A DNA stretch of 47,769 nucleotides from Sedimentisphaerales bacterium (GTDB taxonomy: Bacteria > Planctomycetota > Phycisphaerae > Sedimentisphaerales > Anaerobacaceae). The stretch covers positions 1 through 47,769 of the forward strand of contig JAFGDN010000067.1 of NCBI GenBank assembly GCA_016932095.1, written 5' to 3'. Each line of letters begins with the position of its first letter. The first letter of the stretch is position 1. The notes beneath the pieces were generated by a model. That model did no database searches, was not told the DNA's origin, and worked only from the letters and a program-made list of their open reading frames with translations. Below, in pieces: positions 12,764-47,302 of this stretch. The position numbers were made by a program, and so were the translations under genes.

Positions 12764-13432
12764 CTACAGCGTCCTTCTCTTTTTCATCCATCCGACAAGA
12801 CAAACGCCGATGCCACCCAAAAGGACGGCGCCGGGGGCTGGAATGACAGGGCTGGTATGGCCTAAAAATCTTATGCCGCAATTCGGAGTCTCGTATCTCC
12901 ATCGAAACCAGCAGTCCGCGTCAAAACCTATAGCAAACACCAGCCGGCCATCGGGCTGAATGTAAGAGTTCAGCAAATCAAGCTCTTCAGCATTGAATGT
13001 ATAGGTCAAGTTGTCCACGGTCATTGGACCATCATAATCCACGAAATCTGACGACGAGCCATCAGGGTAAATCTCGTTTCCACCGTATTGCACGAGATCG
13101 TTCTGGTGCAATTGCTGATAATCATTGCCGATGAAGAGTCTATCCCCGCCAAAATACAGGCCCTGTATATCATCAGGTCCCAGTAACCGGACAAACAGCA
13201 CGTTCCTCTCCCACGCAACGCGGTTATAAATACCGGAAATTGACAGCCGCGCGTAATCTACCTCTTCGCCTGTGGGAATAGGGGTGGTTATCTTCCAGAT
13301 ATAGTATTGGTCGTGAGGAAGATCCCACAAATCGTTATCATAAGGCGTCCTGATGAAAGTGCTGTTTGCTCCGGCAAACATCGGGAACGACGCCATCAAC
13401 AATACTACAGCAAGCAAAATCGACTTTTTCAT
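12764..13432 (-). CDS. PEP-CTERM-like exported protein (candidate exosortase substrate)
   Basis: The 222-residue protein has a signal peptide (MKKSILLAVVLLMASFPMFA) and a mature beta-rich domain containing an IRTPYDNDLWDLPHDQYY opening. Its C-terminal sorting tail is a VIPAPGAVLL motif, a short hydrophobic helix with glycines, and the basic end WMKKRRTL. This is the tripartite PEP-CTERM form, with PAPG in place of PEP. Exosortase would cleave near the motif and release or anchor the protein at the surface. The start ATG at 13432 has AAAGGAG five bases upstream. A longer in-frame start about 36 codons upstream is less likely, because it would bury the signal peptide. It lies beside the exosortase locus, so pairing with that exosortase is likely. 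Confidence 0.88.
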   Translation of the reverse strand: MKKSILLAVVLLMASFPMFAGANSTFIRTPYDNDLWDLPHDQYYIWKITTPIPTGEEVDYARLSISGIYNRVAWERNVLFVRLLGPDDIQGLYFGGDRLFIGNDYQQLHQNDLVQYGGNEIYPDGSSSDFVDYDGPMTVDNLTYTFNAEELDLLNSYIQPDGRLVFAIGFDADCWFRWRYETPNCGIRFLGHTSPVIPAPGAVLLGGIGVCLVGWMKKRRTL

Positions 13433-13580
13433 AACCGCTCCTTTCAGTATCATCCGGCCGCAAATTATATGCGGGCGCTTGCTCGGCTTTCCTATTGCAC
13501 TAGCCAAAAATATTCCTTTCAAGTTAATCATGTCATCCATTTCTCCTTTCTCTCGCATAATGTTAGTAACGTACGGTTCC

Positions 13581-13835
13581 TTATATAACTTTTTGTATAA
13601 CCCTGAGCGTCTCACAGACATATTCAGGGAACTTACGATGTAACGGCAGAATCCGGGGCGCCTTGTGAGTGACATAAAAATAAAACAGAAAAAGCACGAA
13701 GAAATTGGCGGATGAAACAGTGATGGCTACGCATTTGGCGCCAAACGAAAGCCGGCTTGACCACAAAGGCCGAAGACCTTCGGTCAAGACCACGCAAACC
13801 AGACACAGCAAATTTAGAATAATACCAACAACCAC
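13581..13835 (-). CDS. possible small two-helix membrane protein
   Basis: The 84-codon frame starts with GTG at 13835, preceded by GCGGAG six bases away. It encodes two hydrophobic segments (about 1-18 and 34-56) and a basic C-terminus. It lies 150 bases downstream of a good promoter and 148 bases upstream of the PEP-CTERM-like gene on the same strand. No family is recognised. The ribosome site and helices favour a real gene, but a leader region cannot be excluded. A perfect CCGAAG/CTTCGG hairpin lies inside it. Confidence 0.42.
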   Translation of the reverse strand: MVVGIILNLLCLVCVVLTEGLRPLWSSRLSFGAKCVAITVSSANFFVLFLFYFYVTHKAPRILPLHRKFPEYVCETLRVIQKVI

Positions 13836-14616: not shown

Positions 14617-17600
14617 TCAGCTCCCCTTGGATAATTTATCGAGGAGCTTTTTCGCTTCGGCCAGGTCATCGGCGGTCAGCCCCTCTTTCTCATTGTTCAA
14701 GTCCAATGCTTTTTTAAGTGTTTCTGTTGCCCGGTCTGTTTGACCAAGTTTTTCCTGAATCCTTGCCAGGTGAAAATTCGTTGCCGCCAGCGACCTGGAA
14801 TCGGGCGGGTAAAGCAGAATACATCGGCTCAAATCGTCAGCCGCACGCTGATACAGACCCAGCCGGTACAGCGTTACTCCCCTCGTATCGAGCAGGTCAA
14901 CGTAGTTTGGCTCGATTTCGAGACCCTTATCGGCAAGGTCCAGCGCCTGCCGGTACTGTTTCTGGTCCTCACAAAGAATCCAGGCGAGATTATTCAACGC
15001 CACGACGTTTTTCGGGTCGTTTTTGAGAACCTGTCTGTAAAGACCGACGGCCTCGTTTGTTCGGCCGACGGTCTGCAACAATAAAGCAAGCGAATAACCG
15101 GCCGAGGCGGAATTCGGCTTCGATTCAATAACTCTGCGAAGTAAATCCTCTGCTATTTTGACTGGTTCATTTTCCTTGTCTGAGGCAAGCTGGCGGGCCA
15201 GAGCCACGGCAACGTTTACGTCATCCGGATGCGACTGCAGCCAGTTTTTAATTTTCCCGTCAACTTCAGGCCACAATTTGTCTTCGGACAGCAGCCGAAC
15301 CTGCACTAACAAAGGCACGGGGTCGTCGGGCGACGACTTTTCGAGTGAGTCGAAAATCTCCGACGCCTCCTTATGTTTTGACGATTTATAAAGAGCCGTT
15401 CCGAGCGAAATTTGCAGCATTCGCCGGTCGACGGCCTTTTCTTGAACGTTCAATTGCGAGTTGAGCAAATCCATCGCATGTTCATACTGGCCGGCGGCGA
15501 CAAGCGTATCGGCAAGATACGTGGTTACCTGGACGTCGTTTGGGTCCAACTCGTGCAGGGCAGTTAAAGTTGGGACTGCCAGATGTGGGGAATGCTGGCC
15601 TTCGATTTGGGCCTTTAAAAGCAGTAACTCCTTGTCCTTAGGCAGCCGGACAAGACCCTCGAGAACAATATTAAGTGCATCAGCGGGCTTTCCCCGTCGA
15701 AGAGCTGTTTCAGCCAGAAGCTTCCATACCTCACTTGTCGCCGGATGCTCTTTTTTTATGTCTTCGAGGATTGAACTCGCCTGCTCCAGCGAAACGGATG
15801 TTTGCAGCGCTACAAGCATTTGCGCCTTGTAAATGCGAAGCTCCAGGTCATCAGGATTCGACTGCAGGGCGTCGTCGAGCAAAACCAGCCCCTGTCGGAT
15901 TTGTTCGGGGTCGGCGGCCAGGTAAAGTAAAATTGCACGTTTCTGGATACGGACGTTATCAGGTTCAAGAAGCATCGCGCGTTTTATATCCGAAGCGGCC
16001 TCAGCGTCGTGTCCGACTGAGCGATAAAAATCGCTTCTCGCCAGCAGCGGCTCAATGCTGTTTGGCTCAATCGATACGGCCCTGTCGAAATCGGCGGCGG
16101 CCGTGTCGTTTTGGCCCAGCATCGCAGCGGTTTTACCCCGTAGAACCAGTGCGCTGCTGTTATTTAACCTCTCGACGAGTTTATCGCATATACGAATGGC
16201 TTCTTCTGAAGCGCCATTTCGAATTTTCATCTCCACTTTTGCTGCCACGGCGGGCAGGAAATCGGGGTCGTCGGCAATCAAATCGTTAAGCAGTTTTTCA
16301 GCGTCGTCCAACTGCCCCTGCTGAATTTTCAAAAGCGCCAAAGATAAACCTGCGGACTGATTTTTCCGGTCGGCGGCAAAGATATCCTCAAGCAAAACGG
16401 CTGCCGAATCGAAGTCGGCCGTCCTGATAAAGCTTTGAAGCTGAAGCTGTTTGAGCCGAGGATTCTTCTTTGTAATTTCGGCTGAATTTCGTATTAACTT
16501 GTCGGCACGGTCATATTCACCGGCTTGATACATAGCCGCGGCCGCCTGGACCACTATTTGAGCGTCGCCGGGTGAATGTCTAATCGCCTCATCATACGTT
16601 GCTATCGCCAGACGGATGTCTTTTGCCTTTTCATAGGCAGCGGCTAAAAGCATTCGACTTGGCTGGTCATCGGGGTCTTTCAGGAGATTTTCTTTCAAAA
16701 TCGCAACAATCTGCGGATAGTATGCGTTGAAATCTTTGGCGTTAAACCAGAATCTTGCCTGCTCGTATCGCCATTGCCCGCCGGCGTCGCCTTCGAGCGT
16801 CTTGATTGTATCGATAAGCTGCTGCGATTGGGCCGGGTTTTTCATAACTTCCGGGCAGGTCAGCATTGAACGAAGGACAGTTATATCTTTGGGGAACTCG
16901 ACACAGAGCCGAGAAAGCAGCTCGCACTGTTTCGCCGGCTGATTCAAGCCGGCGTACAGACCCGCCAGCAGAAAACCCATCTGTTTTTTGGCCGATGTAG
17001 TTTTTCCCTGCTCAAACGCCCGATTGACGATATCAACGCACCGCTGTTTTTCATTTTTAGCCCATAAATTGCTTATACAAGCCCGAACCAATGCGACCGA
17101 ATCGGGTGTTTTTTCGAGTGAATCAGTTAAAAGATTCATTGCCTGACCGGCTTTACCCTCGGCAAAAAGCAAATCCGCCTCGGCGATTACGACCCGCGTA
17201 TCAGAAGGATATAAATTCTTTATTTCATTAAGGATTCGACGGGCTTCGTTAAAGTCAGGTCGATTAACAGCCAACTGCAATCTCAGTAGTTTCACCTCTA
17301 TGGAGCCGCCAGTTGCGAGCTCGAGCTTCCGGGTATAATTTTCGAGGTCGATTTTTTCCTGCACATTTGCCCCTCCCTGCTCATCATACGCCAGGCGCGA
17401 CCTCGCAAGGGCGTATGCAAAGCCGGCATTTGCGTCATCAGGCGCGAGCTCAACGGCAATACGGGAGTGCTGCATCGATTCCGCCCATTTTCCGGCCTCG
17501 CCGAGCAATCGCGCCAATTCAATCCTGGCCGCAACAAACTTTGGCTCTTCGGAAACAAGAACACGCAACTGTTTAATGGCGGATTGGCGGTCGCCGAGTT

Positions 17601-18789
17601 TCAGGAAGGTTCTTGCGAGAGCAAACCGGAGGGTTTCCGGCTGCTTTCCAAGGTCAATCGCTCTTTGCCAGCATCTTACGGCTTCATACCACTGGCCGTT
17701 GGCGTCGGCGAGCAAGCCATTGAGAAACTCCGTTGTAACAGGGGTAATATCTTTCTGTCGCAGCTGGGATATGCAGTCAGCCGCCTCTTCCAATCGGCCG
17801 CTTCGAATATACAGCTCGGCAGCAATCGGCATAAAATCCCAGGGCTGCCGCTCAAGCTGTTTAGAGGCCCTCTGCGCGACTTCACTCATCAACTCACGTG
17901 AGCCGGACGCAATAGCCAGCGACGCCCAGACGCGCCATAACAACTGATTTGAGGGGTCAACGGCCTCAGCAATTTCGAGGTGTTGACGCGCCTGCTGCAA
18001 ACGTCCTGTGCCGACAAGCTGTTCGGCGAGCTGGATTCTGACGTTTGGGCCGTCGCAGTTTTTTGAAGCGGCCAGGTTGAAATCTGCAATTGCCTGAGCC
18101 GTTTGGTCTTGGCGGCGGTGAAACGCTCCCCTGCAAATCAGCGCCATTGCCGAATCGGGATTATTTTTAACTGCCTCCTCAAACCAGAATTGAGGCGTTA
18201 CACTGAAATCCTCCGGCCTTTGCTCGACCAGCCTGCCGAGTGAATCGTACGCATATATCTCATCGGGATTATTTTTTATGATTTTTTCAAGCTCCGCGGC
18301 GGCATCCTTAAATTTACGCTGACCGGCCAAAGCCAGCGCCATTAATCGTTGCAGCTCAGGGGTTTGGGAGGATTGAAGCGCCCTGCCTGCCACAAGCTCA
18401 GCATCTCCGGACATGCCAACCCCAAGGTATAACTCAGTTAACCTTGTCGCGGCCTCAACATGGCCGGGTGCGAGGCGTAATATGTTCCGATAAGCAGCAA
18501 TTGCCTGCTGAATATTTCCCTCCTTCAAGGGCCTGATGTTAAGCTGGCTATCGGCGTATTTGAGCAAAACAGGGATATCATCCTGGACGATGGCAAGGTA
18601 TCTTCCGAGCTGGTTTGCCGCCTCATTCCACTGACCTTGTTCGTATGCCTTACTACCGATTTTCAGCCCTGCGGAAGAGCGTCTTCCCCGCTGCCAGTGG
18701 CGCAGCCCCAATGCCGTAGCCGCTAAAACGGCCAATCCAAGCACTAAAACAACGAACAGTGTCCAGTTGAAGTAACGCCTCATCAGCAT
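14617..18789 (-). CDS. giant membrane-anchored TPR protein (PrsT-like)
   Basis: The 1390-residue protein has one N-terminal membrane helix (about 9-29) after a basic start, then tetratricopeptide repeats almost to the end. Repeat signatures such as AYEQGQWNEAANQLGRYL, PEDFSVTPQFWFEEAVKNNP and VALNNLAWILC recur every 34 residues or so. Exosortase loci of Proteobacteria carry a large TPR lipoprotein called PrsT. This one has a transmembrane anchor instead of a lipobox and is larger. TPR arrays make protein contacts, so it probably scaffolds the polysaccharide/sorting machinery in the periplasm. AGGAG precedes both ATG 18789 (spacing 3) and ATG 18783 (spacing 9). The second is equally possible. 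Confidence 0.88.
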   Translation of the reverse strand: MLMRRYFNWTLFVVLVLGLAVLAATALGLRHWQRGRRSSAGLKIGSKAYEQGQWNEAANQLGRYLAIVQDDIPVLLKYADSQLNIRPLKEGNIQQAIAAYRNILRLAPGHVEAATRLTELYLGVGMSGDAELVAGRALQSSQTPELQRLMALALAGQRKFKDAAAELEKIIKNNPDEIYAYDSLGRLVEQRPEDFSVTPQFWFEEAVKNNPDSAMALICRGAFHRRQDQTAQAIADFNLAASKNCDGPNVRIQLAEQLVGTGRLQQARQHLEIAEAVDPSNQLLWRVWASLAIASGSRELMSEVAQRASKQLERQPWDFMPIAAELYIRSGRLEEAADCISQLRQKDITPVTTEFLNGLLADANGQWYEAVRCWQRAIDLGKQPETLRFALARTFLKLGDRQSAIKQLRVLVSEEPKFVAARIELARLLGEAGKWAESMQHSRIAVELAPDDANAGFAYALARSRLAYDEQGGANVQEKIDLENYTRKLELATGGSIEVKLLRLQLAVNRPDFNEARRILNEIKNLYPSDTRVVIAEADLLFAEGKAGQAMNLLTDSLEKTPDSVALVRACISNLWAKNEKQRCVDIVNRAFEQGKTTSAKKQMGFLLAGLYAGLNQPAKQCELLSRLCVEFPKDITVLRSMLTCPEVMKNPAQSQQLIDTIKTLEGDAGGQWRYEQARFWFNAKDFNAYYPQIVAILKENLLKDPDDQPSRMLLAAAYEKAKDIRLAIATYDEAIRHSPGDAQIVVQAAAAMYQAGEYDRADKLIRNSAEITKKNPRLKQLQLQSFIRTADFDSAAVLLEDIFAADRKNQSAGLSLALLKIQQGQLDDAEKLLNDLIADDPDFLPAVAAKVEMKIRNGASEEAIRICDKLVERLNNSSALVLRGKTAAMLGQNDTAAADFDRAVSIEPNSIEPLLARSDFYRSVGHDAEAASDIKRAMLLEPDNVRIQKRAILLYLAADPEQIRQGLVLLDDALQSNPDDLELRIYKAQMLVALQTSVSLEQASSILEDIKKEHPATSEVWKLLAETALRRGKPADALNIVLEGLVRLPKDKELLLLKAQIEGQHSPHLAVPTLTALHELDPNDVQVTTYLADTLVAAGQYEHAMDLLNSQLNVQEKAVDRRMLQISLGTALYKSSKHKEASEIFDSLEKSSPDDPVPLLVQVRLLSEDKLWPEVDGKIKNWLQSHPDDVNVAVALARQLASDKENEPVKIAEDLLRRVIESKPNSASAGYSLALLLQTVGRTNEAVGLYRQVLKNDPKNVVALNNLAWILCEDQKQYRQALDLADKGLEIEPNYVDLLDTRGVTLYRLGLYQRAADDLSRCILLYPPDSRSLAATNFHLARIQEKLGQTDRATETLKKALDLNNEKEGLTADDLAEAKKLLDKLSKGS

Positions 18790-18810: not shown

Positions 18811-20445
18811 TTATTGAAATTGACGGACAAAATTTTTCAACATTTTCAGGAATGTCTTCAAACATATCCAAAGGTCAAGGGCCGGCGATAAATTCCTTAC
18901 GTATTCAACGTCGTAATGAATCCACTCCTGGAAATCTCTCATCCGCTTCCTGGTTCTGCAGACCTGCCAAAGGCCTGTGACGCCGGGTTTGACTGACAAT
19001 CTCGCATCTCGCCAGAAGGGGCAACGAACGTTCTCTGATTCCGGCGAAGGGCGAGGGCCTACAACGCTCATTTGGCCGAGTAAAACGGCAAAAAACTGGG
19101 GTATTTCGTCTATATAGGTTTCTCGCAGAAACCGTCCGACCCTGCTCATACGCGGGTCGTCAGTGATAACAAACTGTGGGCCATCCGCTTCATTGTAATC
19201 CTGCAACTCGTCCTGCAGCCGGTGAGCGCCAACCTGCATCGTCCTGAACTTATAACAGGCAAATGGTCTGCCTTGAAGGCCCTGACGGATACCCTTGTAA
19301 AAGACGGGCCCCCGCGAGCTTAATTTTATTATGACGGCTATAACCGGCACAAAGGGCATAAAAATCACAAGGACAATCAACGCCACAATCACGTCAGCGA
19401 TTCTTTTTACGCACCGGGCATAAGACAATTTTGGCCAGGTGCGAAAAGAGCCGCTATAAAGCGTATCGGCCCGCAATTCAGAAAAACCGGCCGATGATGA
19501 CTCAATGGGTTGCTGAAGGATTTGAGTTGAATCTGTGATAACACGGTTGCGGACGACGGCGCCGGCGGGGATTGAAACATCCGGGCCTATTATAGACGAT
19601 TGTATTATCGCGCCATCGGCTGCCTTTACTGAATCGCATAAGACGCTCGGGCCTGTAATAATCGTGTTTTCATCGACATCGACGTTGCGGCCAAACAAAA
19701 CCTCGCCAAACAGACGCGCGGCAGCCGGCACAGAATCGCCGTTTGACCCGTTGCGACCCGGTTTTTTCGATGACCCGGACGGCAGCATTGAAAGCAATCC
19801 CTCTTCGGTATTCAAATCCAGCGATGTACCGCCCATACCGATACTTACTATCGTCGCAGAACAGGATTTGCACCTGTTTATAAATTCACCGAAGGCATCG
19901 GAAAATATTTTGTCTGAGAAAAGCAGGTTGGCAACCCGGGAGTTTATAAACAGATAGTGCGGCCAGTCGGATGGTATCGGGACCGGCTGTATAGTGTCGG
20001 CATATAAAAGACGGAATCCAAGCAGATTACATTTCGAATCAGTATGAACTTTTTCGCTTCCGGCCCGAAGATTCGGGTCAATATTCACGGCAACTACGTC
20101 ACAGCCAAGTCGTTCCACGGTCTTAGAGAGCAAACGCGTGTCTGCCGAGACAAGGAACCTGCCGTTTGAAACGACATACCAGGTTTTTTCACGGAAAGAA
20201 GACCATATCGAAGGAACTGCGGCCTTATCATTGTAGAACAAAATCCGGCGGTTATTGCCGTTATCAGCTCGTTTCCATTCACCCGGAACCGCGACAAGGA
20301 AATCATCCGGTCTCAGGGTATTCCATTCGGACAACCTTTTTACAACAACATCAGTCACCGGTCTGCAGGTAAACGCCAGTTTCAAAAGGGAATGAGCGTC
20401 CTGACTCGGCTGATTTGATAATTTATGAACGACAATCAGGTTCAT
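18811..20445 (-). CDS. initiating polyprenyl-phosphate sugar transferase fused to an NTase-like/hexapeptide module
   Basis: The 544-residue protein has three parts. Residues 1-230 resemble a degraded nucleotidyltransferase-like fold with no recognisable catalytic motif. Residues 245-305 are hexapeptide (left-handed beta-helix) turns, such as DENTIITGPSVLC and SSIIGPDVSIPAGAVVRNRV. Residues 340-540 are a bacterial sugar transferase with one membrane helix (about 350-373), KFRTM (399-403), DEIPQ (446-450), VGPRP (462-466) and KPGVTGLWQV (486-495). The C-terminal domain moves a sugar phosphate from a nucleotide to undecaprenyl phosphate, the first step of polymer synthesis. Classic relatives have extra helices at the N-terminus instead. 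The same unusual layout occurs in the exosortase gene of this cluster. Confidence 0.9.
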   Translation of the reverse strand: MNLIVVHKLSNQPSQDAHSLLKLAFTCRPVTDVVVKRLSEWNTLRPDDFLVAVPGEWKRADNGNNRRILFYNDKAAVPSIWSSFREKTWYVVSNGRFLVSADTRLLSKTVERLGCDVVAVNIDPNLRAGSEKVHTDSKCNLLGFRLLYADTIQPVPIPSDWPHYLFINSRVANLLFSDKIFSDAFGEFINRCKSCSATIVSIGMGGTSLDLNTEEGLLSMLPSGSSKKPGRNGSNGDSVPAAARLFGEVLFGRNVDVDENTIITGPSVLCDSVKAADGAIIQSSIIGPDVSIPAGAVVRNRVITDSTQILQQPIESSSAGFSELRADTLYSGSFRTWPKLSYARCVKRIADVIVALIVLVIFMPFVPVIAVIIKLSSRGPVFYKGIRQGLQGRPFACYKFRTMQVGAHRLQDELQDYNEADGPQFVITDDPRMSRVGRFLRETYIDEIPQFFAVLLGQMSVVGPRPSPESENVRCPFWRDARLSVKPGVTGLWQVCRTRKRMRDFQEWIHYDVEYVRNLSPALDLWICLKTFLKMLKNFVRQFQ

Positions 20446-20491: not shown

Positions 20492-22804
20492 TCAGGACTG
20501 AGGGTGTGAATCTTTGCCCTTTTTTTCTTTTTCATCGGGAGAAAATAACAGGGGATTGACGCCGGAGTGACGCCTGTCTCTTTTTGATCTTCCGCTCTGC
20601 GAGTAATAGTTGTATCCGTAACGATAATAAGCGTGACCGAGATGAACATTGTTCATAACGGTGCCAACAATTTTAACGTTAATCTGTGATAACCTGTCCC
20701 TTGCTTCCCTGAGGTCTGAGCCGTTTGTGTGGCCGGCAAAGCTTGTCAGGATAACTGAGCCGGCGATTTTCGCCCAGATAAGAGCGTCAGGAAAAGCAAG
20801 GACCGGCGGAGTATCGATAATCACGTAATCGAATCTGTCCGACAGCATATTTATCAGATTGGCCGTCTCAGGCCGAATCAGAAGTTCGTACGGGTCTTTC
20901 TCATTCTGCGAATCGGCGGCAAGCACGAATAAGCCGGGCGAAACCATTATGCAGAGCGAATCATCAAAAGACGAGCCGGAGAGCAGGTCCTGCAAATTTC
21001 TGGCGCCTCTCGAAACGTTCAATAACCGCCCTATGTCGGGCTTTCTCAGGTCGCCGTCAATCAGGATGACCTTGTGGCCCGATTTGCTCAAACTTGTCGC
21101 TATATTAATCGAAAAAGTTGTTTTGCCGTCGCGCATACCAGCGCTTGTAACAACAAGTTTTTTAGGAATACCTTCGCCGTCGATTAATTTGAGGTTGGCG
21201 CGAATCGTCTGATAATCCTCGGTCAACTGTCTGGGGAGCAGTTTTCTTTCAACTGAGCCCGGGCTGGTAGTGGTCCCGATGATTCTGACGCCGATGCATT
21301 TGACGACGTCATCCGGTGAATGTACGCTATGGTCGAGCTTGTCTCTGAGAAACGCCAGCCCGACTGAGCCGGCGGCCGCGGCCACAATAAGCGCCATGGT
21401 AAACTTCATTCGTTTATCCCTCACGGGCGTGACATCAGCGGTATATGCAATTGAAATCCTGGCGGGCTGTTTCCTTTCCATCTCCATTTCCTGGATTCGC
21501 CGGATTACGGTGTCGTACATCTGATTGTCGCGTTCGAACTGATTTTGCATTTCCTGAATGTTGAGATGTTTGCGGCCGACCTCTATGGCCTGAGCGTCCT
21601 CTTTGGCAAGTTTTTCCTTCAAGCGATTTTCATAAGTTGACACCTGGGCAAGCTGCCCTCGAAGATTGAGCAGCTCGTTTTTGGAAGCGAGGTTTACCTC
21701 TTCGACGACCATAATATCAAAATCTTTTCCCACTTCCTGACGTTTTTCATTTAGCCGTTTCTCGAAGGACGCAACAAATTCCTCTTTCTGTTTAAGAAGG
21801 GGATTTTCAGAGGTCATAAGCTGTCTCGACGCCATCATATCCTGTTCGAGACGCGCGAGGTTACGCACAAGCTCCTGAATAGCCGGGTCGGAATTAATAT
21901 AATCCTTACGCTTATTGAGCCATTCTTCGGGCATCGCCCGCGAACTGCCACTTTCAATGGCTTCGATGCGGGACTCGATGTTTATGCGCTGCGCCTCGAC
22001 TTGTGTCAGCTCAGACAACAACTGCGATACCTTTTCAAGCATCATTCTTTGCCGGTCATCGAGAGAAGCGGTTCCGAATTCCATTGCCAGCTTCTTGATT
22101 TCGTTTTGCTGGTTCTGCAGTTTTTCAAGCAACGTTCTCCGCTCGCTCTCAAGGACGTTTAATTTCTGGTCTTCATCCTGGGTGGACCTGAGCCCTTCGA
22201 CGGCCATATATGCACGTATAAAGGCGTCAACTATAACGCCTGCCTCCTGGGGCTTTGCGGTCCGCATGGTTATTGTTATCAATTCCGAATTGCGCTCAGG
22301 AGTAATAGTAATAACACCGTTGGCGATGGCCAGTTTCAAACGCGCCGCATAGTCAATTCTCCCGGCTGAGCCGTCTATGTGTTGCCTGGCTTTTTTAACA
22401 AGGCCGGACGACTCTGCATTGAAAAGCGAAAGGTTTTTATCCACGAGGTCGTCTGCTACTCTTTGAATAACCTGGGGGCTGGCAATCATTTTTGCCTGCG
22501 TGTTCATAAAGCTCTGATAGTTCGATATCTCGCCCCTGTCCTGCTCGCCGGTAAGTATATTTGAAAGAATCGGCGCGACTTTTATGGCCCCGGTCACCTC
22601 ATAAACAGGATTAAGCCCATGCCATATAAAGGGTATCCCAAGAATACAAGCCGCAGTAAAGACAATAACCACAATCGGCCATCGTCGAAGCAGCATCGCG
22701 ATAAACATTTCTCCCGTATTTGCAGACGCGGATTCCTGAACAGGAGCAAATGCTTCCATTGGCGGTCCTAACGTCCCGCCTTCATATTTCATCAATTCAT
22801 CCAT
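20492..22804 (-). CDS. chain-length protein/tyrosine autokinase (Wzc-like BY-kinase)
   Basis: The 770-residue protein has an N-terminal Wzz domain with one membrane helix (about 42-62), a long periplasmic coiled coil (about 200-450), a second helix (about 467-487), and a cytoplasmic kinase. The kinase shows Walker A SAGMRDGKTT (554-563), Walker A' ILIDGDLRK (580-588) and Walker B YVIIDTPP (660-667). A tyrosine cluster with six Tyr lies at 726-734 as the autophosphorylation site. It should control polymer length and export together with the Wza-like lipoprotein at 9.4 kb. The start ATG at 22804 has GGAAAG upstream. The basic tail beyond 740 is not conserved in the family. Confidence 0.94.
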   Translation of the reverse strand: MDELMKYEGGTLGPPMEAFAPVQESASANTGEMFIAMLLRRWPIVVIVFTAACILGIPFIWHGLNPVYEVTGAIKVAPILSNILTGEQDRGEISNYQSFMNTQAKMIASPQVIQRVADDLVDKNLSLFNAESSGLVKKARQHIDGSAGRIDYAARLKLAIANGVITITPERNSELITITMRTAKPQEAGVIVDAFIRAYMAVEGLRSTQDEDQKLNVLESERRTLLEKLQNQQNEIKKLAMEFGTASLDDRQRMMLEKVSQLLSELTQVEAQRINIESRIEAIESGSSRAMPEEWLNKRKDYINSDPAIQELVRNLARLEQDMMASRQLMTSENPLLKQKEEFVASFEKRLNEKRQEVGKDFDIMVVEEVNLASKNELLNLRGQLAQVSTYENRLKEKLAKEDAQAIEVGRKHLNIQEMQNQFERDNQMYDTVIRRIQEMEMERKQPARISIAYTADVTPVRDKRMKFTMALIVAAAAGSVGLAFLRDKLDHSVHSPDDVVKCIGVRIIGTTTSPGSVERKLLPRQLTEDYQTIRANLKLIDGEGIPKKLVVTSAGMRDGKTTFSINIATSLSKSGHKVILIDGDLRKPDIGRLLNVSRGARNLQDLLSGSSFDDSLCIMVSPGLFVLAADSQNEKDPYELLIRPETANLINMLSDRFDYVIIDTPPVLAFPDALIWAKIAGSVILTSFAGHTNGSDLREARDRLSQINVKIVGTVMNNVHLGHAYYRYGYNYYSQSGRSKRDRRHSGVNPLLFSPDEKEKKGKDSHPQS

Positions 22805-22844: not shown

Positions 22845-24779
22845 TCATTTGGCGGAGATTATAACCTCTTTGGCCTTTACCGGCTGCACTGTCAATCGGT
22901 CAATCAGCCATAACTCCAGGACCACAATCGCCAAAGCCAAAGGCATCATTGCATAGCCACCAAAGTCGTGGAATATCTTTTCCCAGTAATCCCCCTCAAG
23001 CCAGGTGAACGCTATGGCCGTCAACGCTAGTCGCGTCGTATTACACAGCAGGGCGACAGGCAAACTCGAAGCCAATATAGTCAGCTTCTCCCACCATTTA
23101 CGTCTCACCAACAACACTACCAGCCCGCTGATTACAAAAAAAGCGGTTATCATACGCAAGCCGTTACAGGCCTCAGCGACGGCAACCGTGAATTGTCCGA
23201 TGTGTATAATATTACCTTCCCGGAAGACGTCATAACCGAGCATTTCGAGACAAAATACCGCCGAGGATGTTGACCACTGTTGTAAAGGCAGGGCGACCGC
23301 CGCCTGAACGCTGTTGGGCCACGGCAGCATCAGGAACAGGAACAACATCACAAAAGCGGTCTTTTTGAAAAACTCCCAGCCCAGCACAATCAGCACCAGG
23401 GCAATGAGGCCGACAACAATCGCCAGCCGTTCGGCTGAACCATACATAAAAAACAACCCGAATAACCGCAGGCCCTCGGCAAAAAGAAGACCAATGAAAC
23501 CCCACAACGCCGGTCTTATTGAAATGGTCCTGAGTTTATCTCTCCTCGACCAAAGAATATAACCGGCAAGAAAAGGAACGAGTATCCCGCTGGAGTACTC
23601 GTCGCTTCGGCGCCAGATACTACACAGGTCAACGATTCCAGGCCAATAAGACCAGACAAACACAGCCGCTATTACTGCGCCGGCCAACCAGACAATCCAG
23701 GACGAAATCCCTGCTACTGATACTTTTTCCGTTGATGGCTTCGGTATCGGCAACGGATTCTTTAGACCCGACCCAACAAGCTTTATCGCCCGTGCCTTCG
23801 AATCTGACATAACAGAGGATTTTTCAAAAGGTATGATTTTATTTCGAACAACCGTATCACCCGCGATACGAACGTTGTAATCGAGCAGGCAGTTTTGGAC
23901 CTCGCAATCCGGCTCTATCACGGCATTGTCCCAAAGCACACTGCATGCGACAAAGCTGTTGCCGCCTAATCGACAGTTTTTTCCTATGACAGCAGGCCCG
24001 AAAACAACTGTGCCTTTCGCCACCTTTGCGCCCGCCATTACCGCCACAGGCCCCAGTAATTTCGCCGAGGGGTCAATATCAGCAGATTCATCCGCGTATA
24101 TGTTTTCCCCGCCTCTTCGCCGCAGCGTAGGAACCTCTTCATCGAGAGCCGGCTGGTTTTCAAGGAAATTTGTCATTGCTCGCAAATAACCGGGGCCGCC
24201 TCGGAAATTCTCAACGTCCCGGGACAATTCGACGGTCTTAAGAACTTTTCCCTGTTTAAGCATTTCGGGCACCAATCCCTCCTTGATGTCGCAGTAGCCA
24301 TATTGGGGAATGTGCTCCAAAACAGTGTTGCTGCAAATGTAAATGCCCGTGGAATCGGCGCGAGAAGATTTGGCCGGATTAAGAACGGCGGTCAAGTCGG
24401 CCTTTTGCTCGATGTGGGCGTTAATCAAACGATTGATGTCCGGCGTCCTGACAATCGATGCCGAGATGATGACGATAATTTCCCCTGAGTTATTGCTTAC
24501 GGCATCACGAAGACAGCCGGCCGTTCCCACGCGAAGAGGTTCTTCAACGAAATCTATCTTTACCCCTCCGACTCGGGACGTCAGCGATTTCAAAGACCCG
24601 ATATTACCTTCCGAACAAACACTGATTTCCCGAAATTCCTGAGCGGCTACGTGCCTGATAACCCGCTCAATGGCGGATTGCTGCAGCACAGGCCACAGCG
24701 ACGCAGGCAGCCGTGATGCAATCGGACACCGGCCAAAATCAGGACTGCCGGCCAGAACTATTACTCTGACATCGTGCAT
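22845..24779 (-). CDS. exosortase fused to a degenerate sugar-nucleotidyltransferase/hexapeptide module
   Basis: The 644-residue protein begins with a nucleotidyltransferase-like domain (1-208). It keeps the VGTAGCLRDA element but has GSPDFGRC where GGxGTRL is expected, PASLWPV instead of a PKPLLPV-type lysine motif, and SAS instead of the metal-binding NGD. Left-handed beta-helix turns follow (about 228-315). The C-terminal part (359-633) is a multi-helix exosortase with the catalytic residues C538 in AEACNGLR, R583 in NTTRLALT and H604 in FHDFGG. Exosortase cleaves PEP-CTERM tails at the membrane. A likely substrate is the gene at 12.8-13.4 kb. EpsI is not fused and is encoded 22 kb away. 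The gene overlaps the SGNH gene by 19 bases. Confidence 0.93.
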   Translation of the reverse strand: MHDVRVIVLAGSPDFGRCPIASRLPASLWPVLQQSAIERVIRHVAAQEFREISVCSEGNIGSLKSLTSRVGGVKIDFVEEPLRVGTAGCLRDAVSNNSGEIIVIISASIVRTPDINRLINAHIEQKADLTAVLNPAKSSRADSTGIYICSNTVLEHIPQYGYCDIKEGLVPEMLKQGKVLKTVELSRDVENFRGGPGYLRAMTNFLENQPALDEEVPTLRRRGGENIYADESADIDPSAKLLGPVAVMAGAKVAKGTVVFGPAVIGKNCRLGGNSFVACSVLWDNAVIEPDCEVQNCLLDYNVRIAGDTVVRNKIIPFEKSSVMSDSKARAIKLVGSGLKNPLPIPKPSTEKVSVAGISSWIVWLAGAVIAAVFVWSYWPGIVDLCSIWRRSDEYSSGILVPFLAGYILWSRRDKLRTISIRPALWGFIGLLFAEGLRLFGLFFMYGSAERLAIVVGLIALVLIVLGWEFFKKTAFVMLFLFLMLPWPNSVQAAVALPLQQWSTSSAVFCLEMLGYDVFREGNIIHIGQFTVAVAEACNGLRMITAFFVISGLVVLLVRRKWWEKLTILASSLPVALLCNTTRLALTAIAFTWLEGDYWEKIFHDFGGYAMMPLALAIVVLELWLIDRLTVQPVKAKEVIISAK

Positions 24780-25636
24780 TGAGAAAGAGTTATCAGCATT
24801 TGCTCGGCTGTAATCCTACGGCCTAACTCATTGAGATGCCCGCCGTCATCTGTATATTGCGGGGCCATAAACGGGATTCGCCGGCCGTTTCTTGAAACGT
24901 AACAGGAAAGGCCATCAGGCCCGACCGATTCAACCAGGGCAAGGTCAAACAGGCAGTCGGTTTTGCCGTATTCTTCGCGAATAAATTTGTTATACTGCTC
25001 GCGTCTGAGGTTATCATCTATTTCCGTCGGCCTTCTCAAAAGCCATTTGACAAAACCTTTAATTGTCTTTTTCGCCCCTTTTGGCGGCGACTTCAGCGGC
25101 GCCGTAAGATGCAAAAACTTGACTCGCGGGTAACTCCGCTCCATATCGCTAATCGCCGATTTGTATTCATCGAAGATTTCACGGGGATTGCTGTCATTTG
25201 TAACGTCTATGTAACAAAACTTCAAAATAGCGACGTCAACCTTCTCGCCGACGCCGCTATTCATGATTTCTGCGAATTGCTCTATCTTGCTTGTCGGCTG
25301 TCTGTTTTTCCCCACAGGCGAATGAGCAAAAACAGGCCCTGCAAAATCCCGCGGCGAGGATGTCTCAACAACATTCAGTTTCATCGGATTACCGTTGCGG
25401 ATAACGTCCTCAATACCGTTGACAATGTTATAGCCCACCGACTGGTGGCCGAAAAATATCTTCGCCTCGGCAAGCTTGCTCCAGCGTTCCGCGGGCATGT
25501 CATTTGCTTTCGGCAGGGGCGCCGTCGCCCGCTCAAACCTCAATGTCGTTTTCACGTGGAACAGCAACGACAGGCCGACAGCCACGAAAACCCCCAAACC
25601 CGCTGCGATATATATCGAGCTCATTTTAATCCTCAT
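24761..25636 (-). CDS. membrane-anchored SGNH/GDSL-like hydrolase-fold protein
   Basis: The 291-residue protein has one N-terminal signal anchor (about 7-24) and an extracytoplasmic domain. This contains FFGHQSVGYN near the start, an ILKFCYIDVT strand, and TDDGGHLNELG near the end. That arrangement resembles the SGNH fold, with Asp and His of the last block in place. The usual GDS serine is replaced by GHQSVG, which can still offer serine. Such proteins modify polysaccharides by adding or removing acyl groups. The start ATG at 25636 overlaps the stop of the NadE-like gene as ATGA. ATG 25624, with GAGG six bases upstream, is an alternative. The longer frame belongs to the previous gene. Confidence 0.75.
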   Translation of the reverse strand: MRIKMSSIYIAAGLGVFVAVGLSLLFHVKTTLRFERATAPLPKANDMPAERWSKLAEAKIFFGHQSVGYNIVNGIEDVIRNGNPMKLNVVETSSPRDFAGPVFAHSPVGKNRQPTSKIEQFAEIMNSGVGEKVDVAILKFCYIDVTNDSNPREIFDEYKSAISDMERSYPRVKFLHLTAPLKSPPKGAKKTIKGFVKWLLRRPTEIDDNLRREQYNKFIREEYGKTDCLFDLALVESVGPDGLSCYVSRNGRRIPFMAPQYTDDGGHLNELGRRITAEQMLITLSQCTMSE

Positions 25637-26628
25637 TTGGCTTTCTCTCTGACATCGTCGATTAAAACGGGAGGCGAGTGCAGGTACCGTGATACACTGC
25701 GTTTGGCCTCGATATCTTTGTAAATATTCTCGACCTGCTCTTCGGTCAAACCCGCCGTCGCCGCCACAGCCGACGGGGTAACCCCGTGATTTTTGCCGAA
25801 CAGGCAAAGGTCCATTTTGTCGTATGGCACTGAGAAGTAGAATTCTTCCTGGCTCTGGGGCAGTGAATACGTATCGGTTGTCGGCTGCTGCGAGCGGATT
25901 GTATCCGGCAGGCCGAGGTATTCAGCCATTTGATAAACCTGGGTTTTATAAAGGTGTCCTATCGGTTTTACGTCTGCTGCGCCGTCGCCGTTTTTGACGA
26001 AAAAGCCCTGGTCGTATTCCAGCAGGTTAGGCGTTCCGGCCACGGCGTAGTTGTGCTTGTCGGCATAGTAATACTCGAGCATTTTTCGCGTTCGCTGTTT
26101 GAAGTTTGTCGCCGCAACAATCCCCAGATAGGCGTCTCGCGTCAGACGAACCTTTTTTTGAACGCCCTCAGGTGATTCGACGACCACCGAAAAAAGCCGA
26201 TACTGCTGCTCATCGGTGAAGCCGGGCAGGACAATCTTGCTTTTGTAACCCGGCCCATATTCCGGAACAACACTGCGTATCGCCTCATCCCTTCTGCGAT
26301 AACAGCCAACCGAATCCAGGATTTGAGTTATGTCTTCCGTTTCGGCCTTTATCCCTAAATGCTCAACTATCAGCCGGCCCAGGCCGAGCGTCTTTTTTGA
26401 CGAATCCTTCTCGGGCATCAGAAGGCCCAGAACTCGCTCTTTGCCAAACGCGGCAACGCACAAAGCCCCGACCACGCTGCTGTCAATACCTCCCGATAAC
26501 GCGACAACAGCGCCGCGTTTCTTGAAATTAACCAGGACAACGTCTCGCAGGGCCGCCGTTATCCTTTCGGCCTCACGGGCACAGTCAATCCGCAGAACGT
26601 CTTTTGAAAAAGGTGTCTTCATAGCCAT
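25633..26628 (-). CDS. nadE: NAD synthase-like ATP-pyrophosphatase (NadE family)
   Basis: The 331-residue protein has the PP-loop SGGIDSS (45-51), AGTPNLLEYDQGFF and NGDGAADVKPIGHLYKTQVY. These match ammonia-dependent NAD synthase, which amidates deamido-NAD after adenylation. There is no glutaminase domain. The AGTPN block departs from the usual GT(G)NKSE, and the C-terminus is extended. NadE-like genes beside acyl ligase, ACP and AsnB in polysaccharide clusters may amidate another acid group. I cannot tell whether this is the housekeeping enzyme. GGAG stands five bases before ATG 26628, which follows the ligase stop by two bases. Confidence 0.82.
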   Translation of the reverse strand: MAMKTPFSKDVLRIDCAREAERITAALRDVVLVNFKKRGAVVALSGGIDSSVVGALCVAAFGKERVLGLLMPEKDSSKKTLGLGRLIVEHLGIKAETEDITQILDSVGCYRRRDEAIRSVVPEYGPGYKSKIVLPGFTDEQQYRLFSVVVESPEGVQKKVRLTRDAYLGIVAATNFKQRTRKMLEYYYADKHNYAVAGTPNLLEYDQGFFVKNGDGAADVKPIGHLYKTQVYQMAEYLGLPDTIRSQQPTTDTYSLPQSQEEFYFSVPYDKMDLCLFGKNHGVTPSAVAATAGLTEEQVENIYKDIEAKRSVSRYLHSPPVLIDDVREKAK

Positions 26629-46585: not shown

Positions 46586-47302
46586 TTATCTTGTTTTTGC
46601 CTGGGCGTTTCTCTGGCCGTTTTCTGCAGGGAAAAATGGTATCAGAAGGTCCGCCATATGCCCCGCTGCTGCACGGGCGCCATTTTCGGAAGTTGACCCA
46701 ATCTGTATCTGGGCCACATAACGAGCGGGATTGCCTTTAATGTTAGGCGTCCGCCAGCCAATGCCGCTGAAGGTGCTTTCATCAGTGGTCAGCACGCCGT
46801 TGACCACGTAAAAATTCAATACTATCATCTCGCCGCTATTCGGAGCCGGTCTGTGGAAGCGATGCAGCAGGCACGGGATGGTGCGCTCGGAAAGCGAAAC
46901 TACAGACGTCTTCACTGTGCTGTCGTGAATCCATCCGCTTGCCGGATAACAGAGGGTCGGCCTGTGCCCTAACATTGTTCTCGGCCGGGTCGTATATGCA
47001 ACATAAAGGTTTATATGCTCGTTAGTAGAGTGATTTTGATATTCACGGTTTATGTAATCGTCGTTACGGGCAATCCGTTGCACCGGCTCAGACAATGGCG
47101 TGTCTTTACCCTTCCAATCGCCCACCTCGTATGGAAAGGCATTTAAACTAACGGGCAGCTCAACCGGCATACGAACAATGACTCCCAGGTATTCCGCCAC
47201 GCCCCGGTAGAGTGCACCTGTTGCCGCCAATAAGGCAACCACTAATAAAATAACGATGACAACCCATGTTTTGGCAATCGCTGATTGCCTCGTGCAGGCC
47301 AT
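46586..47302 (-). CDS. epsI: exosortase-associated protein EpsI
   Basis: The 238-residue protein has a single N-terminal membrane helix (about 13-32) and a periplasmic EpsI-type domain with the signature HRPTLCYPASGW (113-124). The domain is known as an accessory of exosortase systems, sometimes fused to the exosortase. Its exact function is not settled. It is the first gene of the large cluster and 22 kb from the exosortase itself. AGGAG stands seven bases before the ATG. Confidence 0.92.
   Translation of the reverse strand: MACTRQSAIAKTWVVIVILLVVALLAATGALYRGVAEYLGVIVRMPVELPVSLNAFPYEVGDWKGKDTPLSEPVQRIARNDDYINREYQNHSTNEHINLYVAYTTRPRTMLGHRPTLCYPASGWIHDSTVKTSVVSLSERTIPCLLHRFHRPAPNSGEMIVLNFYVVNGVLTTDESTFSGIGWRTPNIKGNPARYVAQIQIGSTSENGARAAAGHMADLLIPFFPAENGQRNAQAKTR

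Follow-up and report, generated by a model that had tools for sequence, protein, structure and literature searches.

In a 47,769-nucleotide stretch of DNA from a Sedimentisphaerales bacterium (the whole stretch is termed the window), an initiating sugar transferase (a monotopic PGT, here ST) and an exosortase (here EX) carry the same kind of N-terminal module. That this module consists of a nucleotidyltransferase (NTase) domain followed by a short left-handed beta-helix in both proteins is practically certain. Computation established the fold of both modules, the catalytic loss in the EX copy, the conserved fusions and operon order, the membership of both modules in one family, in the case of ST by way of sister PGTs, and the existence of stand-alone copies. 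By analogy to GMPPA or eIF2B-epsilon, it is quite possible that the module acts as a dead assembly and sensing subunit, which would link exopolysaccharide initiation to the exosortase.

The gene cluster

ST is encoded by one minus-strand open reading frame, and the plus strand of the same segment is full of stop codons. The genes and domains concerned are the following.

14617-18789, minus strand: PrsT-like TPR protein, next downstream of ST after a 21 bp gap (TIGR02917, 300.0 bits, cut-off 312.2)
18811-20445, minus strand: ST (544 aa), a monotopic PGT and initiating sugar transferase, its N-terminus formed by a pseudo-nucleotidyltransferase/beta-helix module (ORF, Pfam, AlphaFold2)
18835-19407, minus strand: ST residues 347-537, Bac_transf catalytic domain (PF02397; Asp446-Glu447 invariant, 18/18)
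19513-19716, minus strand: ST residues 244-311, left-handed beta-helix with hexapeptide turns (sub-threshold Pfam PF25084, AlphaFold2 strands)
19771-20445, minus strand: ST residues 1-225, eroded nucleotidyltransferase-like domain (AlphaFold2, Foldseek/VIA, hhalign against ordinary NTases)
20492-22804, minus strand: Wzc-like chain-length/tyrosine autokinase, the sole gene separating ST from EX (TIGR01007, 133.6 bits, cut-off 108.05)
22845-24779, minus strand: EX (644 aa), exosortase that likewise bears the module at its N-terminus (ORF, Pfam, AlphaFold2, Foldseek/VIA)
22905-23666, minus strand: EX residues 372-625, exosortase domain (PF09721, 202 bits; Cys538, Arg583 and His604 invariant, 18/18)
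23832-24107, minus strand: EX residues 225-316, left-handed beta-helix (PF25084, 53.3 bits, cut-off 54; PF24894, 25.8 bits, cut-off 23.3)
24126-24779, minus strand: EX residues 1-218, nucleotidyltransferase domain lacking the catalytic Lys and the metal Asp (PF00483, 28.9 bits, cut-off 21.2; residue counts)
24761-25807, minus strand: GDSL-like gene, overlapping the EX start by 19 bp (weak PF00657, 17.5 bits)

Thus, on the minus strand the order is GDSL-like gene, EX, Wzc-like kinase, ST and PrsT-like TPR protein, where the initial overlap is followed by gaps of 40, 46 and 21 bp. The cluster also contains an acyl-CoA ligase and an amidotransferase, for which XrtA-associated models are the best or second-best match, below their cut-offs. 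An EpsI-like gene is located far from EX, at the opposite end of the cluster (46586-47302, minus strand; TIGR02914, 48.7 bits over 42.8).

The sugar transferase and its N-terminal module

The preliminary description placed a polyprenyl-phosphate sugar transferase domain at residues 340-544 of ST, and Pfam agrees with it (Bac_transf at 347-537, 197.5 bits). Asp446 and Glu447 are invariant in all 18 rows of the alignment, and we take them to be the catalytic Asp-Glu pair of monotopic PGTs. Judged from such residues, the enzyme domains of both ST and EX look intact. ST scores below the cut-offs of TIGR03013 and of TIGR03025 (242.6 bits, cut-off 295.55).

The absence of the usual helices ahead of the catalytic domain had also been pointed out correctly. 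PF13727 gave no match at E<=1, and hydropathy shows a single hydrophobic segment at the start of the catalytic domain (342-378); therefore, the four-helix bundle usual in large PGTs is absent. Residues 1-245 gave no Pfam match at E<=1 either. For the hexapeptide turns, previously placed at about 245-305, a match to PF25084 was obtained at 251-307 (24.0 bits, below the cut-off of 54), next to weaker ones to PF24894 and Hexapep, and the AlphaFold2 model displays beta-helix strands at 244-299.

The NTase-like nature of the region in front of these turns was borne out by structure prediction. The model of residues 1-332, based on a 60-row alignment, has a pLDDT of 86.8 and a pTM of 0.84, and in it residues 1-317 are predicted to form an NTase domain and a left-handed beta-helix. 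Foldseek against the PDB gave 8x7s as the best match (2.7e-9), and the 50 matches listed are pyrophosphorylase, eIF2B and GlmU-type NTase/beta-helix proteins by annotation or entry title. By query, the matches have low TM-scores (0.31-0.47) and a high rmsd, which we take to be due to a different tilt between the two domains. VIA aligned 279 of residues 1-317 with a GDP-mannose pyrophosphorylase (Z 14.3, rmsd 7.2), and the closest solved folds among the matches listed are GDP-mannose and ADP-glucose pyrophosphorylases and eIF2B.

On the profile level, the NTase half of ST matches ordinary NTases at E 5.9e-4 over 146 columns (hhalign, wider profiles), with SNGR of ST facing NGD; the controls, namely the PGT, exosortase and both beta-helix profiles, gave E 0.38-0.59. 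In an alignment of the window copy with those of 59 of the 64 PGT-holding loci described below, filtered by length and completeness, the NGD-like site is NGR in most rows. The residues kept among these 60 modules are P162 and G206 (60/60), G143 (59), W161 (58), E131 (57) and R146 (56).

The module of the exosortase

The same layout was claimed for the exosortase two genes away, and it is found there in clearer form: Pfam identifies NTP_transferase (PF00483) at 19-145, the beta-helix at 225-316 and the exosortase domain at 372-625. EX scores 153.7 bits against TIGR02602 (cut-off 105.55). By equivalog score it is not an XrtA (TIGR03109, 148.6 bits, cut-off 208). Cys538, Arg583 and His604, unchanged in every row of the alignment, are presumably the conserved functional Cys, Arg and His of the exosortase family. 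All hydrophobic segments of EX follow residue 350. Since these segments lie behind the modules in both ST and EX, both modules are soluble parts preceding the membrane part, and we infer that they are cytosolic.

The AlphaFold2 model of EX residues 1-340 (pLDDT 90.5, pTM 0.87) again retrieved 8x7s by Foldseek (2.0e-16). In VIA, the best match is eIF2B-epsilon (Z 31.5, rmsd 3.3, 327 aligned residues), and GMPPA/GMPPB were found with Z 30.6 (rmsd 2.5, 310 aligned residues). The NTase half matches ordinary NTases at E 3.2e-32 (hhalign).

Despite this likeness, the active site is lost. In 72 EX modules (71 fetched ones and that of the window, filtered by length and completeness), aligned to an ordinary NTase from the same genome, the catalytic-Lys column holds Lys in 1 of 72 and the metal-Asp column holds Asp in none. 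We assume the compared columns to be the catalytic Lys of the PK motif and the metal-binding Asp of the GD motif. In contrast to these, G85 and G88 of the GTAG loop, W29, H122, D164 and Y198 are fixed (72/72), and K166 and E167 occur in 71 of 72. The EX module hence keeps the GTAG loop, R17, a near-invariant DxKE motif and Y198. By residue conservation, this pocket-like set is not kept in the ST module, which makes ligand binding by both modules unlikely. By sequence, the two modules are both pseudo-enzymes, with the EX copy less eroded than the ST copy.

Relationship of the two modules

Both models thus match pyrophosphorylase and eIF2B structures, that is, the same PDB families were found by both modules, and among the matches listed for either one no structure of a kind other than pyrophosphorylase, eIF2B, GlmU or hexapeptide protein attracted notice, an absence that carries no weight as proof. 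Furthermore, the whole modules match each other in hhalign with 99.3% (E 2.5e-20). The soluble module common to ST and EX, as put forward in the preliminary description, is therefore upheld by structure prediction and by profile comparison, and no confident unrelated fold appeared. Most of this profile match comes from the beta-helix, which by itself gives E 3e-25. The direct comparison of the NTase halves is not significant (E 0.18; 0.01 with wider profiles), and the claim that they form one family consequently rests on sister PGTs and on the folds.

Such sister PGTs are L184 and L185, whose less eroded modules score 180 and 116 bits against the EX profile. In a PGT tree of 35 rows, all 19 module-bearing PGTs including ST form one clade (97/85); for this tree 8 of the 18 PGTs of one alignment were taken, duplicates and short pieces were dropped, and L198 was included among the module-bearing PGTs because of a weak match to the beta-helix. 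In a module tree of 37 hand-picked rows, the EX, stand-alone and PGT-fused (L184, L185) modules group together against 15 ordinary NTases (99/95). The window-type ST modules were omitted from it as too diverged, so their link runs via the PGT domain, the fold and the beta-helix. Taken together, the two trees make the reuse of one scaffold the simplest history. The earlier suggestion that one scaffold was duplicated is in this way supported indirectly, and one shared origin of the ST and EX modules appears very probable.

Two further proteins were observed. In L144:1-1149, which a contig end truncates, a PGT is joined to another EX-like beta-helix, and this widens the PGT-fused kind. The other, L172:1375-2505 (minus strand), is an NTase/beta-helix protein of 377 aa from another planctomycete family, which stands alone and is very eroded.

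Conservation among planctomycetes

Related planctomycete loci were surveyed, as had been suggested at the outset. They were fetched by patterns from the exosortase and from the GYxDIKE motif of the module, and the best 80 of 151 were kept; since they were fetched partly by the module motif, this set leans toward fused copies. The exosortase is fused to the module in 73 of these 80 loci, split from it in 2 (L115 and L116, where the module is a separate ORF upstream of the exosortase) and cut by a contig end in 5. A PGT is present in 64 of the best 80 loci, and all 64 PGTs carry the module, with Wzc in between in 63 of 64. For the 59 loci from this set with an uncut exosortase as well as a PGT, the module resides on every PGT (59/59) and on 58 of the 59 exosortases, L115 with its separate ORF being the remaining one. 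The operon order exosortase, Wzc, PGT is kept.

Within this set, L067 has a fused exosortase and no PGT within the 10 kb flanks. L094 and L099, titled Candidatus Kuenenia and Pelotomaculum, contain the planctomycete cassette and are probably mislabelled or mis-binned MAGs.

Among 41 genomes of relatives, full-length ST relatives are present in 23 and EX-type modules in 22, all among those 23, and neither is found in 18. In the 22 genomes with an EX-type module, 20 have it with an exosortase (in G014 cut at the contig start) and 2 as a stand-alone gene.

A survey of 294 genomes, an even draw of the phylum without a lean toward fused copies, revealed an EX-type module at E <1e-30 in 12, of which 9 are frames of exosortase-fusion length, 1 is stand-alone and 2 are PGT-fused. 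The exosortase domain was confirmed in 8 of the 9 frames, G296 being assigned by frame length only. An ST module at E <1e-30 occurs in 8 of the 294 genomes, all among the 9 exosortase-fusion genomes; in the ninth, G132, a beta-helix PGT is cut by the contig end (L187). Three of the nine (G071, G114 and G132) lie outside the class of the window.

Natural separations and other fusions

In several loci the parts occur separately. In four loci from other Phycisphaerae (L219, L221, L222 and L223), a stand-alone module gene of 320-391 aa lies beside a plain exosortase, followed by Wzc and then a PGT, whose own module is reduced and weakly matching. L220 contains the module, Wzc and PGT, with no exosortase match in the stretch, and L224 (G139, by kinship from another class of the phylum) contains the module and an exosortase, with no PGT in the stretch.

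L225 (G016) and L226 (G022) come from the window's own family. A tblastn search of them with 18 exosortase-domain queries found no exosortase domain in 12 kb. The module is kept as a free gene of 367 aa in L225 (L225:3752-4852) and of 343 aa in L226 (L226:3151-4179). Wzc follows it after 35 and 69 bp, respectively, and a module-bearing PGT lies behind Wzc. Together they are a natural deletion, in which the exosortase half was lost and the module was kept, and which separates the two functions. The persistence of the module here indicates that it has a role without an attached exosortase.

In L050:2-4153, the exosortase fusion is in frame with Wzc as one open frame of 1384 aa; it comes from one MAG contig and an assembly error is possible. 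A Wzc-PGT fusion considered in L124 (872-aa frame) was rejected, its first 300 residues being an upstream frame unlike Wzc.

Correlation of distances

Distance correlations were calculated for 56 of the 80 loci, and for 44 of them with the TPR protein as a control. Over the 56 loci, the distances of the ST module correlate with those of the EX module with r 0.90, in comparison to 0.79 and 0.77 for the modules with the N-terminal part of Wzc and to 0.85 and 0.74 for the modules with the enzyme domains to which they are fused. A different distance formula yields a module-module partial correlation of 0.42. In the control (44 loci), the modules correlate with the TPR protein at 0.88 and 0.89 versus 0.86 between the modules, and the partial correlations are 0.27 and 0.36 versus 0.33. 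Since the TPR protein correlates equally strongly, the module-module signal is not specific, and co-evolution as a sign of contact was dropped as support.

Relation to known systems

Taken singly, the parts belong to known kinds; the literature searched does not describe one dead module shared by two membrane enzymes as unlike as these. A close likeness is found in GMPPA/GMPPB and VTC1, which share the NTase plus left-handed beta-helix fold and include a dead paralogue (Z 13.7-14.3 for the ST module, about 30 for the EX module). GMPPA is described as a dead subunit, which binds GDP-mannose and inhibits or controls GMPPB (PMC11228364), and GMPPA/GMPPB and VTC1 are reported to assemble as dimers mainly via the beta-helix (PMC9168903). 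In contrast, these are free soluble enzymes, whereas here the module is fused to two unlike membrane enzymes, and among the operon genes searched no catalytic partner was seen. The eIF2B epsilon/gamma subunits likewise are an NTase/beta-helix pair without nucleotidyl transfer, and epsilon is the best VIA match of the EX module, but eIF2B is a eukaryotic translation factor without an attached membrane enzyme.

The large monotopic PGTs WbaP, EpsZ and WcaJ have the same catalytic domain with a soluble N-terminal region ahead of it. For WbaP, this usual N-terminal domain is described to make most of the dimer contacts and is implicated in the binding of uridine nucleotides or UDP-sugars (PMC10942596), and EpsZ is reported to be activated by a protein thought to promote the EpsZ dimer (PMC12802240). 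ST differs from them by the pseudo-NTase/beta-helix in place of the PF13727 domain and the four-helix bundle.

The cluster as a whole resembles XrtA-type exosortase/PEP-CTERM clusters, with exosortase, Wzc-like kinase, PGT, PrsT-like TPR protein, EpsI-like protein and XrtA-associated acyl-CoA ligase and amidotransferase. In contrast to those, the exosortase here scores under the XrtA equivalog cut-off and bears an N-terminal fusion, and the PGT is below the TIGR03013 cut-off. From their first description onward, exosortases have been associated with exopolysaccharide loci (PMC1569441). The literature searched held nothing on exosortase-NTase or PGT-NTase fusions, and the exosortase papers in it mention Phycisphaer- only inside reference lists. 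PGT-NTase fusions may already stand in O'Toole 2021 (PNAS), reportedly the main survey of PGT fusions.

Possible roles of the module

In the mechanism we propose, the ST and EX modules would pair in the cytosol via their beta-helices, similar to GMPPA with GMPPB and eIF2B gamma with epsilon. The paired modules would hold the PGT, starting the exopolysaccharide, and the exosortase, releasing or anchoring surface proteins, in one membrane assembly, of which Wzc would probably be a part. The EX module with its GTAG loop and DxKE motif may bind a nucleotide sugar, and both jobs would then run only with precursor available; the ST module occupies the place of the N-terminal domain in WbaP-type enzymes. 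An assembly between the two modules is possible and is put forward tentatively; operon co-occurrence alone does not imply contact between ST and EX, and L067, with its fused exosortase and no PGT in the flanks, also counts against the proposal. Ligand sensing by the module, as read from the retained residues, is somewhat doubtful. That exopolysaccharide initiation and exosortase sorting are coupled both physically and allosterically, by two diverged dead pyrophosphorylases which pair via their beta-helices and sense the nucleotide-sugar supply, is rather unlikely to hold in full. The mixed trimers through the beta-helix that the preliminary description considered are unsupported, and mixed dimers would have the better precedent.

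A similarly guarded judgement, fairly unlikely, applies to the reading in which each module only homodimerises or stabilises its own enzyme in the manner of the WbaP N-terminal domain (PMC10942596), so that the scaffold was fused twice and the enzymes never meet. The beta-helix homodimers reported for GMPPB and VTC1 (PMC9168903), the unspecific co-evolution signal and the strong divergence of the ST and EX modules are in line with it. However, the module is also kept as a gene of its own, either with no exosortase or beside one, and therefore does more than dimerise the protein to which it is attached; nor does this reading sit well with the 59 loci from the best 80 of 151, in which the PGT (59) and the uncut exosortase (58) bear the module together. 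A nucleotide-sugar sensor, which would feed the precursor level back to its own enzyme with no inter-enzyme assembly needed, would explain why the GTAG loop, R17, DxKE and Y198 persist in the EX module despite lost catalysis, and it has precedents in GMPPA (PMC11228364) and in the UDP-sugar binding implicated for WbaP (PMC10942596). But none of those residues is kept in the ST module and the reason for regulating an exosortase is left unexplained, which renders this sensor unlikely.

Two enzymatic roles are highly improbable. An active sugar-1-phosphate nucleotidyltransferase making the donor for the attached PGT would fit the match of the EX copy to the NTP_transferase family above the curated cut-off; it was dropped on the catalytic residues (Lys 1/72, Asp 0/72), and erosion has gone further in the PGT copy, the very place where such an activity would be of use. 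Equally improbable is a beta-helix acting as an acyltransferase that modifies a sugar, like the C-terminal half of GlmU. A weak match to the GlmU C-terminal hexapeptide profile points in this direction, but the helix is short and the whole-module matches are pyrophosphorylases and eIF2B, in which the beta-helix is an assembly part.

A dead module common to an exosortase and to the enzyme that starts the polymer is a concrete, testable link between sorting and exopolysaccharide, and L225 and L226 show which part can do without which. For initiating PGTs, it represents a second kind of N-terminal module, replacing the domain found there as a rule, which forms the dimer and has been implicated in binding nucleotides. 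If the proposed coupling were true, bacteria would possess a counterpart to the arrangement seen in GMPPA/GMPPB and eIF2B, and there would be a direct molecular reason for exosortases travelling with exopolysaccharide loci.

Sorting signals and a second exosortase

The source genome contains 29 PEP-CTERM matches, in comparison to none in 14 control genomes. In the window, the protein encoded at 12764-13675 (minus strand) has a PEP-CTERM-like tail (PAPGAVLLGG...KKRRTL); the curated model matches it only at E 0.29, and therefore a variant sorting signal is possible. A second, plain exosortase is present in the same genome (G000:C44:109809-110687, 352-aa frame), and plain copies occur in most relatives.
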